Shown piece by piece: positions 4,496-11,486 of a DNA stretch of 52,042 nucleotides. Source of the DNA: Halovivax asiaticus JCM 14624. Lineage in GTDB: Archaea; Halobacteriota; Halobacteria; Halobacteriales; Natrialbaceae. The stretch covers positions 225,628 to 277,669 of the forward strand of contig NZ_AOIQ01000017.1 of assembly GCF_000337515.1 (NCBI RefSeq), written 5' to 3'. Position 1 is the first letter of the stretch; every line of letters starts with the position of its first letter. The notes beneath the pieces were generated by a model. The model had not been told where the DNA came from, ran no database searches, and was given only the letters and a program-made list of their open reading frames with translations. Position numbers and translations under genes: made by a program.

Positions 4496-5320
4496 TCACT
4501 CAGCCGGTGGCTGTCCCTGTTTCTCCGTTCGGTCCCTCCGTTCCGTCGTCGCGGTTCTCGGGCTGTCTCCGCCCGCTTCGGCCGGTCCGTTTCCCTCGCT
4601 TTGTCCCTCACCGCTCGCGGTGCCTCTGCTCGCTTGATCCGAGGCCTCCCGTCGGGCGGTCTCGCAACCCGGGGCGGGCGCTTCGCCAGGCGTCGTCGGC
4701 ACGTCACCGCGGGCGAGCGCGGTCTGGCCCGTGCGGGCGATCTCGACGATGCCGAACTGCCGGTAGGCGTCGATTGCGGCGTCGACTCGCGACTCGTCGC
4801 CGGTGAGTTCGACGGTGATCGTCTGCGGGTCGGCGGCTATCGTCTCGCCGTCGTACATCTCGGTGATCGCGTGGACTCGTTCTGGCTCGTCGCCGCGGAC
4901 CTTGACGAGGACCAGCTCGCGAGAGACGGTCTCCCCCGAAATCTCGCCCGCGGAGATGACGACGGGGAGCTTCCGGAGCTGTTTTTTGAGCTGATCGACG
5001 CCGGGATCGGTCTCCTCGACGACCATCGTGATCCGGGCGTGGCCCGCGACGGTCGTCGGCCCGACGGTCAGGCTCTCGATGTTGAACTGTCGGCGCGAGA
5101 CCAGGCCGGACACCCGCGCGAGCACGCCCGGTTCGTGTTCGACCAGGGCGGAGACGACCGCCCGGCGCCGGTCGTGTTCGGCCTCGACGACCGGGTCGAT
5201 TCGAATCCCGTCCGTGGTTCGGCGCGACTCGGGATGCGGTCGGTCCGACGGAGCCGGACCGGGCAGTCCGTCGTTCCTCCCGTCTGCGTCGCTTCGAGGT
5301 GGGGAACCCTCGCCGCTCAT
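4496..5320 (-). CDS. ilvN: acetolactate synthase small (regulatory) subunit
   Basis: Regulatory subunit that activates IlvB and confers feedback control by branched-chain amino acids. Residues about 52-125 form an ACT domain ([20 protein letters not shown], then [14 protein letters not shown]). A second ACT-like half follows ([20 protein letters not shown] through [14 protein letters not shown], to about residue 197), the usual two-part IlvN plan. At 274 residues it is longer than typical because of about 45 disordered N-terminal residues and a roughly 70-residue Gly/Ser/Arg/Glu-rich tail. The ATG at 5320 overlaps the ilvB TGA (ATGA); ilvC begins five bases after the stop. Identity is firm, and the tails are the odd feature. 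Confidence 0.95.
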
Positions 5321-7203
5321 AGGTGCTCCTCCGTGAGCGCGAATTGGCCGTTCGCGCCGCCGCTCGGTACCATGGGCAGGACGTTTTCCTCCGGGTCGAT
5401 GTGGCAATCGATCACGGCGGGGCCGTCGTAGTCGAGCGCCGATTCGACGGTATCGGCCACCTCGGCTGGATCGACGATGCGGAAACCGCGTGCTCCGAAG
5501 GCCTCGGCGAGCGTATCGAATGCGGGAACCCAGTCGTACTCCGAGGCCATCCGCCGTCCCTCGAAGAAGGCGTCCTGCCACTGGCGAACCATGCCGATGT
5601 GCTCGTTGTTGAGCACCGCGACCGTGACGTCCAGTTTCTCGCGCACCGCGACGGACAGCTCCTGCATCGTCATGAGGAACGAGCCGTCGCCCTCGAAACA
5701 GACGACGTCGCGGTCAGTCTCGCCCGCCTCGTCCGCGGCAAGTCGCGCCCCGATAGCTGCCGGAAGTCCGTAGCCCATCGTCCCGAGTCCGTGCGACGAG
5801 ACCCAGGTGCGCGGCTCGGCGAACGTCCAGAACTGGGCGGCCCACATCTGGTGCTGGCCGACGCCGGTGGTCACGATCGCGTCGTCGGCCGTCGCCGCAT
5901 CGAACGCCTCCACGACGAACTGCGGTTTCAACGGCCCGTCGTCGCTCGTGGCGTAGGTCAGCGGATACGTCTCCGCCCACTCCGCACACTGCGTGCGCCA
6001 CTCGGCAGCTGCCGGCGGCGACTCGACCGCGGCCGACAACTGTTCGATGACGGCGCCCGCGTCGCCGATCAGCGGATAGTCGGCGTGGACGTTCTTGCTG
6101 ATCTCGGCCGGATCGATGTCGACGTGGATCACCTCGGCCTCGGGCGCGAACGTGTCGATCCCCCCGGTCAGGCGGTCGTCGAACCGTGTCCCCACGGCGA
6201 TCAGGCAATCGGTATGCGTGATCGCCATGTTCGCGTAGCCGGTGCCGTGCATGCCGGCGAACGATAGCGACAGGGCGTCGTCCTCCGGGAACGAACCCAG
6301 TCCCGGCATCGTCGTCGTCACCGGAATCCCGTTCGTGCGCGCGAACGCCGTCGCGACATCGCTCGCATCCGCGGCGACGACGCCACCGCCGAACAGGCAC
6401 ACCGGGCGGTCGGCCGACTCGATCGCCCGAGCCGCTGCGTCGACGGCGTCGGGGTCGGCCTGGGATCGTGATTCGTCGCTTCGGGTCGCTTCGCTTTCGG
6501 CTCGTGTCGTCGATGTTCGTCCGGCTCCACGGCCCGATTCAGTCGCTTCATCGAGTGTGACGTCTTTTGGCAAGTCGACCAGCGTCGGACCGTGTCGATC
6601 CGCGCCGGCGCGTGCGTAGGCCTCCTCGACGGTCGAACCGACCGTCGTCGCGTCGGTCGCGAACGCGTTGTACTTCGTGATCGGCCGAGTGACGCCGATC
6701 GTGTCGGTCTCCTGGAACGCGTCGTTGCCGACGAGGTCGGTCGGGACCTGTCCCGTCAGGGCGACCATCGCGTCGGAATCCATGTCTGCGTCGGCGATGC
6801 CGGTGACGAGGTTGGTCGCACCAGGTCCCGAGGTCGCCAGGCAGACGCCCGGTTTCCCTGCGACGAGGCCGTACGCGTCGGCTGCGTGGGCGGCCGCTTG
6901 CTCGTGGGCCATCGTCACGTGCCGGACCGACGACGCTGCGAGTGCGTCGTACACCGGCATGATCGCTCCGCCCTGAATACCGAAGGCCAGCTCGACGCCG
7001 CTCGCTTCGAGTGCGCGGGCGACGGCGTCGGCGCCGGTCGTGGCATCCCCCAATTCGTTCTCGGTGTCGTCAGTTGCGGGTGGGCCCAGTTCGGTAGCTG
7101 TCTCGTCTCCGGTTGTCGTCGCGTCCGGCGACGAGTCGGGTGCTGTGCCTCGATCTGCGGTGTCGTCTGTGTGGTCTCGATACGTCGTCTTCGTGTCGGT
7201 CAT
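5317..7203 (-). CDS. ilvB: acetolactate synthase large (catalytic) subunit
   Basis: Thiamine-diphosphate enzyme that condenses pyruvate with pyruvate or 2-ketobutyrate, the committed step for valine, isoleucine and (via ketoisovalerate) leucine. At 628 residues it is long: an acidic/Thr-rich lead of about 54 residues precedes the PYR domain (ELAFGIQGGAIMPVYDAL). The catalytic glutamate sits in MAHEQAAAHAADAYG (Glu101). The TPP/Mg motif GDGSF...NN is at about 505-533, and FQETDTIGVTRPITK marks the FAD-binding AHAS type. A second low-complexity linker lies near residues 215-250. An in-frame TGA 15 bases upstream fixes the ATG at 7203. Expression probably starts at the TATA box at 7455-7467 and crosses a long leader with a small ORF. 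Confidence 0.96.
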   Translation of the reverse strand: MTDTKTTYRDHTDDTADRGTAPDSSPDATTTGDETATELGPPATDDTENELGDATTGADAVARALEASGVELAFGIQGGAIMPVYDALAASSVRHVTMAHEQAAAHAADAYGLVAGKPGVCLATSGPGATNLVTGIADADMDSDAMVALTGQVPTDLVGNDAFQETDTIGVTRPITKYNAFATDATTVGSTVEEAYARAGADRHGPTLVDLPKDVTLDEATESGRGAGRTSTTRAESEATRSDESRSQADPDAVDAAARAIESADRPVCLFGGGVVAADASDVATAFARTNGIPVTTTMPGLGSFPEDDALSLSFAGMHGTGYANMAITHTDCLIAVGTRFDDRLTGGIDTFAPEAEVIHVDIDPAEISKNVHADYPLIGDAGAVIEQLSAAVESPPAAAEWRTQCAEWAETYPLTYATSDDGPLKPQFVVEAFDAATADDAIVTTGVGQHQMWAAQFWTFAEPRTWVSSHGLGTMGYGLPAAIGARLAADEAGETDRDVVCFEGDGSFLMTMQELSVAVREKLDVTVAVLNNEHIGMVRQWQDAFFEGRRMASEYDWVPAFDTLAEAFGARGFRIVDPAEVADTVESALDYDGPAVIDCHIDPEENVLPMVPSGGANGQFALTEEHL

Positions 7204-7334
7204 GTGGGCATACTGTCAGTCGCTGCTGCAGGACAATTCGAACGCGAGCCTCGTCGGCACTGGTCGGTGAGAGCGAGGTGCCAGACGGCTGGCTGGCGGT
7301 CGACGATACGTCCGGTCGGGGAAGAGAGGGGTGT

Positions 7335-7354
7335 GTAGGGGACTAGGCCCCTAC
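7335..7354. promoter_or_regulatory. Inverted repeat overlapping the leader-ORF stop (attenuator-like hairpin)
   Basis: A perfect 7-base inverted repeat, GTAGGGG / CCCCTAC, with a 6-base loop. On the minus strand the last codons of the leader ORF (Val-Gly-Ala-stop) run through its 5' arm and loop, so a ribosome there would prevent the hairpin from forming. A weaker pair (GCTCCCG / CGGGAGC at 7386-7392 and 7414-7420) lies further upstream in the same leader. Function is inferred from placement only. Confidence 0.5.
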
Positions 7355-7432
7355 AATAATCGAACCACCGAGAATTGCAGCGACAGCTCCCGTGACCGCA
7401 GCAAAGTCGTGAGCGGGAGCGTTCGGTCGCAC
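7343..7432 (-). CDS. Candidate 29-codon leader peptide or small membrane peptide upstream of ilvB
   Basis: A GTG-started ORF of 29 codons ending in TAG. The C-terminal 19 residues read AAVTGAVAAILGGSIIVGA, a hydrophobic stretch holding seven branched-chain residues (Val, Ile, Leu). Its start lies about 29 bases after the centre of a strong TATA box (7455-7467), as expected for a leaderless haloarchaeal mRNA. Its stop codon falls inside a hairpin, and ilvB begins 139 bases later. The layout resembles a bacterial ilv leader peptide that measures charged Val/Ile/Leu tRNA. The same hydrophobic run could equally be a single-helix membrane peptide. No family is recognised. Confidence 0.5.
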   Translation of the reverse strand: MRPNAPAHDFAAVTGAVAAILGGSIIVGA

Positions 7433-7454
7433 TGTACCCGGTGAGTCGACGGCT

Positions 7455-7467
7455 GATTTTATATATC
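7455..7467 (-). promoter_or_regulatory. TATA box for the ilvB-leu transcript
   Basis: On the minus strand the segment reads AGATATATAAAAT, the clearest TATA element in this GC-rich neighbourhood. A start about 27 bases downstream would fall near 7434, essentially at the GTG of the leader ORF and about 230 bases before ilvB. The 7204-7645 interval otherwise contains only the leader ORF and the two inverted repeats. Confidence 0.65.
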
Positions 7468-9047: not shown

Positions 9048-11486
9048 CTAGTAGGACCCAGGCGGCGTTTTCCGCGAATACGGCGCGGCGAAGAAGCCGT
9101 ACAGCGGTTTCGACGAGCCGACGTACGACGGCTCGAACCAGTTGCCAAGGTCGTCCTTCTTCGTAAACTGGATCCGCATTTCGTTGTCGTCCGGGTAGTT
9201 CGGGTCGTAGACGTAGATTTCGATCGTGTCACCGGATCGCGTGTAGCCGTAGGCCAGCACCTGATGGTTGTTCCCGATCTGATTGAAACCGGTCTTGAGG
9301 GGGTTGCCGTGCGTATCGACGTGAATTAACCCGAGCGGACAGAGGGTGTTGCTGTCGAGGGTCGGTTTGATCTCGTTTTCCCACTCGTCCCGCATCACCT
9401 CGTTTCTGCTTTTCTTCACCTGCCCCCACTTCTTCGTGTTCGCCGAGTTCATCAGCGTCTGGTAGATTCCCGCGCCGAGTGCGTTTCCATCGCCGGGAAC
9501 GAAACTGTCGAACAGCCGCTCCGAGAGGAAGTTGAAAAGCCGCGTGTCCTCCGCCGGCTGGTCACCGTGGACTGGCGAGTTCGGTGGCGACCGCGCGACG
9601 AGGTCGTCGGACCAGGGCGTCACCCCGTGCTCGAAGTAGTCCCGCACCGCGAGTACCATGCCACCGCACATACCGTTCGTGGTATCGCCGATTTCGTCGA
9701 TCGTTCCCAGTCCGAACGGGAGCCTGATCGGCTGGGGGAGCGTGTACTGCCCCGCGGGAAAGTCGTTATCAAACGCGAAGGCACAGTCTTCGACGCTGAA
9801 CCCCTCGACTGCGGTGTCGAGTACCCTGTCGGTTTCGTATCTGGGTGTGCTTCGTCCGGGCCGTGCGATACCGAGGAAGCCCACGGATTCGACGTCGTGT
9901 CTCCCGTCGCTGCCCTCCTCTTCCTGGAGCCTGACGTCGAACCCGTGTGCATCGAGGTTCGTCGTCCGCGTCACGACCTCGTTGTATCCGTTGTACGTCT
10001 GGCACTGGGTGAGAAGCGCCGGTTGTTTGCTGCCGTAATCCGGAACGAACTTCGTGCTGAACCACTGGTGGGTGGCTTGCGTCGTGCCGACGTGGAGGTG
10101 CGACCCGTCCGAGAGTACGTGCGTTCCCGACTCCAGCAAGAGGTAGCCGATGGTCTCTTCGACGTGTCTGCCGTTCAGGTAGTCCCACTCCTCGATCTGG
10201 AGTTCGAAGGATTCGGGGCCGACATTGCGCAGGCGGACGTGAGCCGGCTGTTCGCCGTTGTACGTTTGTATGTCTGCGAACACCACAGGGTCGTCGTACA
10301 CCTCACCACCGTACTTCAGCGTGTGCCAGTACGATTCGTCGTGCTGATCGAACGAAAACGTCCCGGCCCACCCGATGCTGTTCCCGTTCTCGTCTTCGAT
10401 CGGGCCTTCCGGACGGGAGAGGACGCTTATCGTCTCCTCGTTGTGCCGGCGCTCCTCGTTCTGTGAGGCTTCTTCCTCGACCCGTACCTGCCCTCCGGTC
10501 GACGAAATAGCCCGTAACCGCGGTGCAGCCGTATCGGAGCCGTTGAACGTATCGAGATTGGTCAGAACGACCGGGTTCGACGAGGTAATACGCGTCTCGA
10601 AATCGAACGCCGTCCAGTCGTGGTCAACGTCCTGGACCCGACCGAAGCCGACCTCGACGTCGCGACGTGGCGTCGCAACGACGCCGACCGTCTCCTGGAC
10701 GTGTTCGCCACCGCGGGCCGCCTCTTCCTGAAGGCGGACCTCGAGGCCATCGCCGCCCACGTTCCGGTGTCGTGTTACGATTTCGTGGTGACCGTTCTCG
10801 GTCTGCGACCGGCTCACTACGGCGGGGTCGCTGCCGAACGCGGCCGAGAACGTCATCTCCGACCAGTCGTCGTCGGTCGGGACGGTCCGAACCTCGAGCG
10901 GAGTCCCGTCCGAGAGAGGGTTCTCGTCCGGGAGCGTGTGGCTTCCTTGTTCGAGAACGAAGTATCCGACCGTTTCCTCCGTATGTGGGCCGTTATGGGT
11001 ATCCCACTCTTCGATTTGAAACTCGAAGCTATCCGGCTGCACGTTTCGAACCCGTCCGTGACAGGCGTCTTTCCCGCGGTAGGTCATGACCTGCGTGAGC
11101 ACGACCGGATCGTCGTAGCTATCATTCAACTCGATGGTGTGCCAGTGGTCACCGTCCGGCTGTTCCAGATCGATGGCACCGGCCTCCCCGATGTGACGCT
11201 CCGACACGTCCGTGATCGGACCACTCGGCGCTCCGAGAAACCGGATCGAATCGGCCTTGTGCCAGGTCTCTCCGTCCTTCGAGGTCTCCTCCTCGACGAA
11301 CGCCTCAAGACCATCCGCACTGACGTTACGAAGTCGGAGGCCCGCAGTATCTCCTCCGTGGAACGACGCGATCGATCCCACGACGACGGGCTCTCCTGTC
11401 GACTCGAGCTCGGGGACGTCCGCGTTCGTCCAGTCGTCTGTCGCCTCGAAACCGCCTGCCGTGAACGAGTCAGTTCCATCTGTCAC
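9048..11486 (-). CDS. 812-residue protein: six tandem beta-rich (H-type-lectin-like) repeats plus C-terminal cysteine-peptidase-like domain
   Basis: Residues about 33-542 consist of six repeats of about 85-95 residues. Each has a (D/N/Q)PVVL-like strand, a TYNG-like turn, a RLRNV..FE strand, an EE(W/E) segment and an ETVG(Y/F)L ending, resembling the H-type lectin fold. Units 1-3 and 4-6 look like a duplicated triplet; units 1 and 4 are both followed by a P(S/E)GPI(T/E)D spacer. Residues about 590-812 look like a papain/C39-type domain: candidate Cys607 in NGMCGGMV, His741 in GNNHQVLAYGY and Asp761 in YVYDPNYPDD. No signal peptide or membrane segment is visible. The start is a GTG; AT-rich DNA lies upstream. 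It stands alone between leuA and a tRNA-Val with att-like repeats, suggesting an acquired gene. Activity and target are unknown. Confidence 0.85.
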   Translation of the reverse strand: MTDGTDSFTAGGFEATDDWTNADVPELESTGEPVVVGSIASFHGGDTAGLRLRNVSADGLEAFVEEETSKDGETWHKADSIRFLGAPSGPITDVSERHIGEAGAIDLEQPDGDHWHTIELNDSYDDPVVLTQVMTYRGKDACHGRVRNVQPDSFEFQIEEWDTHNGPHTEETVGYFVLEQGSHTLPDENPLSDGTPLEVRTVPTDDDWSEMTFSAAFGSDPAVVSRSQTENGHHEIVTRHRNVGGDGLEVRLQEEAARGGEHVQETVGVVATPRRDVEVGFGRVQDVDHDWTAFDFETRITSSNPVVLTNLDTFNGSDTAAPRLRAISSTGGQVRVEEEASQNEERRHNEETISVLSRPEGPIEDENGNSIGWAGTFSFDQHDESYWHTLKYGGEVYDDPVVFADIQTYNGEQPAHVRLRNVGPESFELQIEEWDYLNGRHVEETIGYLLLESGTHVLSDGSHLHVGTTQATHQWFSTKFVPDYGSKQPALLTQCQTYNGYNEVVTRTTNLDAHGFDVRLQEEEGSDGRHDVESVGFLGIARPGRSTPRYETDRVLDTAVEGFSVEDCAFAFDNDFPAGQYTLPQPIRLPFGLGTIDEIGDTTNGMCGGMVLAVRDYFEHGVTPWSDDLVARSPPNSPVHGDQPAEDTRLFNFLSERLFDSFVPGDGNALGAGIYQTLMNSANTKKWGQVKKSRNEVMRDEWENEIKPTLDSNTLCPLGLIHVDTHGNPLKTGFNQIGNNHQVLAYGYTRSGDTIEIYVYDPNYPDDNEMRIQFTKKDDLGNWFEPSYVGSSKPLYGFFAAPYSRKTPPGSY

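Follow-up and report, generated by a model that had tools for sequence, protein, structure and literature searches.

The window analysed here, a stretch of 52,042 nucleotides (nt) from Halovivax asiaticus JCM 14624 whose own coordinates are used throughout, carries on its minus strand the gene ilvB for the large subunit of acetohydroxyacid synthase, preceded by a long leader with a candidate regulatory mini-open reading frame (mini-ORF) that is the subject of this report. The identity of ilvB rests on three Pfam TPP_enzyme domains (N, M and C), with an ATG at 7203; ilvN (Pfam ACT_AHAS_ss) and ilvC (Pfam KARI) lie downstream, and a leuA-type gene lies upstream of the leader on the same strand. 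The features of the locus are as follows.

7459..7466, minus strand: TATA box ATATATAA of the leader promoter, read from the sequence
7343..7432, minus strand: leader mini-ORF with a GTG start, 29 codons and a TAG stop, VRPNAPAHDFAAVTGAVAAILGGSIIVGA followed by the stop, read from the sequence; its frame is conserved in 155 distinct leaders
7352..7360, minus strand: putative regulatory codons ATT ATT GTA (Ile Ile Val), of which the second and third form the pair conserved class-wide
7335..7354, minus strand: hairpin GTAGGGG-CCTAGT-CCCCTAC with the stop codon within its loop, from sequence and folding
7322..7339, minus strand: G-free, pyrimidine-rich, U-enriched tract CCTACACACCCCTCTCTT, overlapping the end of the 3' arm of the hairpin
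7204..7342, minus strand: untranslated stretch of 139 nt between the leader stop and ilvB, read from the sequence
5317..7203, minus strand: ilvB, acetohydroxyacid synthase large subunit (Pfam domains), with ilvN and ilvC next

The GTG of the mini-ORF is at 7432-7430, 34 nt from the start of the TATA box, and the ORF ends in IIVGA with its TAG at 7345-7343. A preliminary description of this DNA had pointed to the TATA box, the GTG close to the predicted transcript start and the 29-codon ORF, to seven Val, Ile or Leu codons among the last 17, to a perfect 7-base-pair (bp) hairpin overlapping the end of the ORF, and to an ilvB start 139 nt past the leader stop. All of these are present on the minus strand and its counts are right, the hairpin occupying 7354-7335 and its loop containing the stop.

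For comparison, we collected 175 ilvB-carrying loci from named haloarchaea and 100 related genomes. The exact GTAGGGG-loop-CCCC motif, preceded by an open mini-ORF, lies upstream of ilvB in 167 of these loci (167 of 173 without the truncated ones), which correspond to 155 distinct leaders and 55 clusters at 70% identity. Three Haloferax species are among the carriers of the leader. As GTAGGGG and CCCC belonged to the search anchor, their invariance among the aligned leaders is partly by construction. The eight loci without the exact motif comprise two truncated contigs (L023 and L060), two degenerate leaders (L170 and L171) and four leaderless loci (L172-L175) in which, as read from the sequence, ilvB directly abuts the upstream gene. 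The degenerate leaders belong to a small-genome family (f2), end in AVQVFVGA and AVQVSVGA before the stop, and have stems that are rearranged yet pairable; they provide a natural test for which positions matter. No equivalent motif was found before ilvB in 20 loci of other Halobacteriota (methanogens and others), which gave chance ATYGTAGG matches only. A search of the H. asiaticus genome for further copies yielded a single unrelated match, so the motif is not a regulon-wide operator, and no relevant Rfam match (T-box, riboswitch or ilvB motifs) was obtained for the locus or its relatives at E values up to 1 or 0.5. The preliminary description had asked whether the leader persists among haloarchaea while other sequence drifts, and it does: the ORF, the Ile and Val codons, the stop position and the hairpin are retained in almost all Halobacteriales, and the rest of the leader drifts.

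The element is not a product of chance, and it is a reading frame rather than a bare motif. If an ATG is counted as a start when an AT-rich box lies upstream at the appropriate spacing, the motif shares its frame with 126 of these starts, and the other two frames have 1 each; in the 55 cluster representatives the corresponding numbers are 45:0:1. Over the 20 codons that lead up to the motif, all 155 distinct leaders are free of in-frame stops. The mini-ORF is 19-55 codons long, always in frame with the motif, with 45-156 nt separating its start codon from the motif. A clear TATA 8-mer is present in 88 leaders; counted from its first base, the in-frame start codon follows at 28-39 nt (mode 33-34), the spacing of leaderless transcripts.

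The codons next to the hairpin are strongly constrained. If the GTA of the motif is taken as codon 0, it is GTA in all 155 leaders, in 89 of which it is incompletely paired in the hairpin, and codon -1 encodes Ile in 153, Val in 1 and Leu in 1, so that even the exceptions are branched-chain. In the genes of the window, ATT makes up 7.5% of Ile codons and GTA 4.4% of Val codons. The share of Ile, Leu and Val rises from 12.5% of codons -16..-9 to 37% of codons -8..-5 and 68% of codons -4..0; given the size of a ribosome footprint, these codons cluster where a stalled ribosome would be expected to cover the 5' arm of the hairpin. The stop is found at +9 (68 leaders), +12 (74), +18 (2) or +24 (11) after GTA, and hence within the hairpin loop (+9 or +12) in 142 of 155. 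The C-terminal pattern of the peptide is xx-Ile-Val-Gly-Ala/Val; of the hydrophobic run singled out earlier, the Ile-Val-Gly-Ala/Val just before the hairpin is invariant and the run as a whole is not conserved. The N-terminal part is unconstrained, with 84, 92 and 99 substitutions at codon positions 1, 2 and 3 in 47 disjoint close pairs, as expected if the peptide itself is functionless. This behavior is that expected of an attenuator leader; an arrest peptide of some length or a small protein should behave otherwise.

A GGGG:CCCC stem is present in 155 of 155 distinct leaders, with inward or outward extensions that differ by lineage; the 7-bp form described for this window is thus real but confined to a subset. 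The 24-nt core folds with a mean energy of -12.7 kcal/mol, against -3.9 for shuffles, and a C-G or U-A pair joins position 7 to its partner in 112 leaders, where shuffling gives an expectation of 84 and a maximum of 96. Conservation differs between the two arms, the 5' arm overlapping the candidate regulatory codons. The 18-nt stretch directly past the hairpin is almost free of G (3.1% versus 25% background) and U is enriched at +27..+32 (42% versus 12%), both of which hold in the cluster representatives (p ~1e-10). Within Halovivax, a GCUCCC/GGGAGC stem is located inside the leader ORF. When the whole leader is folded as a single sequence, its stability exceeds expectation only weakly (z -1.9 for 251 nt, -0.2 for 141 nt); a search by folding energy would therefore have overlooked the element. 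From motif to ilvB ATG the distance is 55-301 nt (median 151), which speaks against the ilvB start being masked directly. A TATA-like 8-mer between hairpin and ilvB occurs in only 4 of 136 leaders and no second TATA is conserved, so ilvB, as far as can be read from the DNA, depends on the leader promoter. As judged by comparison across the class, the ORF, its frame, the Ile and Val codons, the placement of the stop, the hairpin and the tract are all evidently under selection. The comparison gives good support both for translation of the leader and for a coupling of the leader to the hairpin, and translation in the cell with stalling at the codons would be the expected counterpart.

A matching arrangement was found at a second gene. 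In many haloarchaea pheS is preceded by a leaderless mini-ORF ending in GF[GAD]F[FV]F, two further residues and a stop, for example GFGFFFAR (loci L223-L252, L313 and L314-L332), and H. asiaticus has its own copy.

G000:C17, about 111037-111126 (L313): pheS leader of H. asiaticus, ending in TGFAFFFAR and a stop

Such a Phe-codon leader before a gene for Phe-tRNA synthetase supports the sensing of amino acids by codons. The same scan, serving as a negative control, gave nothing for trpC (Trp), hisG (His) and tyrS (Tyr), none of which had a cognate leader upstream. In Escherichia coli, pheST is controlled by an attenuator whose leader, pheM, is a mini-ORF rich in Phe codons before the Phe-tRNA synthetase genes. 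The haloarchaeal GFGFFFAR leaders likewise precede pheS; they differ from the E. coli leader in being leaderless and in having another conserved structure behind them, and an attenuation mechanism is putative for them. This structure, CGGTGGA ... GAAACCG, lies downstream of the leader ORF. Its GGTGGA resembles a T-box core, but the likeness is lost across relatives and there is no Rfam match, and we rejected a T-box. The N terminus of the pheS leader (MASEP/MTSES) is also conserved, unlike that of the ilvB leader. In Haloferax volcanii, pheS has a mapped long 5' untranslated region (5'-UTR) with a 26-codon upstream ORF (uORF), to which no attenuator role was assigned (Babski et al. 2016, PMC4983044).

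Considering these data, we regard it as probable that the leader is a ribosome-mediated attenuator of ilvB and the genes behind it (ilvBNC...), sensing the charging of Ile- and Val-tRNA. The preliminary description had already suggested an attenuator-like element, a reading that the conservation of the leader and the Phe-codon leader before pheS now support, its mechanism being a matter of interpretation. In this scenario, a ribosome would load on the leaderless 5' end and translate the mini-ORF with RNA polymerase still nearby. When Ile-tRNA or Val-tRNA is scarce, it would halt at AUU or GUA with an empty A site, its front edge covering the GGGG arm; the hairpin would be blocked and transcription would proceed into ilvB. 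When both are plentiful, the ribosome would reach the stop codon in the loop and depart, and the freed RNA would fold into the GGGG:CCCC hairpin and expose the G-free, U-enriched tract, which may bring transcription to an early stop, either intrinsically or via the archaeal factor FttA/aCPSF1. The codon-sensing half of this proposal is strongly supported by the comparison of leaders. Termination would be the favored read-out rather than mRNA decay because hairpins terminate transcription in vivo in Haloferax, to 59% in a reporter (PMC7237163). Coupling of transcription and translation is supported for haloarchaea (PMC8576121), and FttA/aCPSF1 is a ribonuclease with a preference for U-rich RNA (PMC11616081).

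Several observations weigh against such an attenuator. Codon -1, otherwise an Ile position, is Phe or Ser in L170 and L171. The tract past the hairpin contains no classical U run in GC-rich species, the maximum T-run usually being 2; runs of 4-5 occur in 15 of 155 leaders, including several of the lowest-GC lineages (Haloquadratum walsbyi, ATTTTTCACC; Halonotius, CTTTTTATCC). No antiterminator structure is conserved across families. Moreover, the nucleotide conservation of GTAGGGG exceeds what the hairpin needs; a protein that binds the RNA or DNA could account for this as well.

The main rival, which we hold to be unlikely, keeps the codon sensor and changes its output: the hairpin and the C/U-rich tract would be exposed to a nuclease, so that decay or processing of the mRNA is controlled and full-length transcription stays constant. 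All of the evidence for codon sensing counts equally for this explanation, as do the lack of a strong U run in the tract and the fact that FttA/aCPSF1 is itself a ribonuclease preferring U-rich RNA (PMC11616081), whereas the order of hairpin and then U-enriched tract resembles a terminator, and hairpins do terminate transcription in Haloferax (PMC7237163). Arrest of the ribosome by the nascent peptide, in which a C-terminal IVG[AV] stalls translation in the manner of TnaC, possibly with Ile or Val as ligand, would account for a short conserved C terminus right before the stop and for the constrained stop position. It is nevertheless improbable, for only about four residues are conserved, with no constraint upstream, the synonymous codon GTA is fixed although an arrest peptide does not require it, two relatives read VFVGA and VSVGA, and the pheS leader peptide is unrelated and rich in its cognate amino acid.

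The strict conservation of GTAGGGG beyond the needs of pairing, and its partial palindrome with CCCC, could also indicate a binding site for a regulator of ilvB, at the level of DNA or RNA, with the ORF being incidental. To this we give very little credence: the 126:1:1 frame linkage and the stop in the loop cannot be incidental, the distance from start to motif varies between 45 and 156 nt, the arms are unequally conserved, and conservation is asymmetric, the G-free tract lying on one side only. On these grounds we rejected the reading as a DNA operator. The alternative offered in the preliminary description, a functional small membrane protein encoded before ilvB, draws on the hydrophobic C-terminal half of the peptide in this window; it appears scarcely credible and was rejected. 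Hydrophobicity is not general among the leaders (for example MTVRASLSARVRTVDTSALAPIRIVGAF, followed by the stop), sequence and length drift freely over 19-55 codons, the C terminus is dictated by the hairpin, and the flat pattern of substitutions over codon positions (84/92/99) speaks against purifying selection on amino acids, and with it against any conserved small protein.

Further upstream of ilvB, the leuA2-type gene (2-isopropylmalate synthase) shows a peculiarity of its own, in that its TATA-preceded ATG is out of the frame of the enzyme.

8876-8814 and 8836-7646, minus strand: leuA2-type gene (also loci L363-L367)

An ATG in the offset frame is present in all 77 distinct haloarchaeal leuA2 heads, opening a mini-ORF that contains RVLPGH or ends in RVLRR; in 69 of the 77 there is no enzyme-frame ATG, GTG or TTG within 100 nt upstream. 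Within Halovivax the start is out of frame in 5 of 5 genomes. For the H. volcanii gene HVO_1510, the start was flagged as a problem, with an in-frame CTG or ribosomal slippage considered and control by leucine raised as speculation (Pfeiffer and Dyall-Smith 2021, PMC8305020), and peptides were reported upstream of Met-93 (PMC8305020). The class-wide pattern favors programmed +1 frameshifting or an overlapping leader ORF as candidate explanations. Beyond leuA2, a minus-strand ORF at 9048-11486 encodes 812 residues with recurring segments, H-type-lectin-like by eye, and has no Pfam match.

Ribosome-mediated attenuators of ilv operons are well known from the enterobacterial ilvGMEDA/ivbL leaders. 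The ilvBNC operon of Corynebacterium has a ribosome-mediated transcription attenuator as well (PMC10272879, PMC11857589). Like these, the haloarchaeal leader places a peptide with branched-chain codons and an RNA hairpin before ilvB, and the position of the ribosome is expected to decide how the RNA folds. In contrast to the bacterial examples, it is leaderless, a single compact hairpin holds the last codons and the stop, neither an antiterminator nor a canonical U run is seen, and the invariant regulatory codons number one or two (AUY GUA) where the bacterial leaders have long runs; the archaeal RNA polymerase and termination machinery also differ. Attenuation of the TnaC type is Rho-dependent, and to our knowledge Archaea lack Rho. 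As in that system, a C-rich, G-poor tract lies directly past the leader stop, where a stalled ribosome could mask it; here, however, the candidate factor would be FttA/aCPSF1, with its U-rich preference (PMC11616081).

Mapped transcripts of H. volcanii include uORFs of 15-31 codons in long 5'-UTRs (PMC4983044, Table 2), to which no attenuator function was ascribed. That list lacks the ilvB leader, which may fall just outside its window of 150-250 nt of 5'-UTR and up to 31 codons (PMC4983044). In the open-access full-text literature, to which our search extended (subscription literature lying outside it), neither an amino-acid attenuator from Archaea nor the present ilvB leader was found to be described.

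In conclusion, we lean toward the view that haloarchaea make class-wide use of bacterial-style ribosome-mediated attenuation on leaderless mRNAs, at ilvB (Ile/Val), at pheS (Phe) and possibly, as a frameshift-type variant, at leuA2, with a compact single hairpin linked to archaeal termination. In bacteria, attenuation by a translating ribosome is textbook knowledge, and the archaeal RNA polymerase and termination factor are eukaryote-like; if true, this would be the first ribosome-mediated attenuation described in Archaea. A conserved, compact leader in genetically tractable haloarchaea would make both transcription-translation coupling and FttA-dependent termination testable on a natural element. 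The leader would also explain the long untranslated stretch before ilvB in organisms that use mostly leaderless mRNAs, and its layout may serve as a recipe for finding further leaders, as pheS exemplifies.
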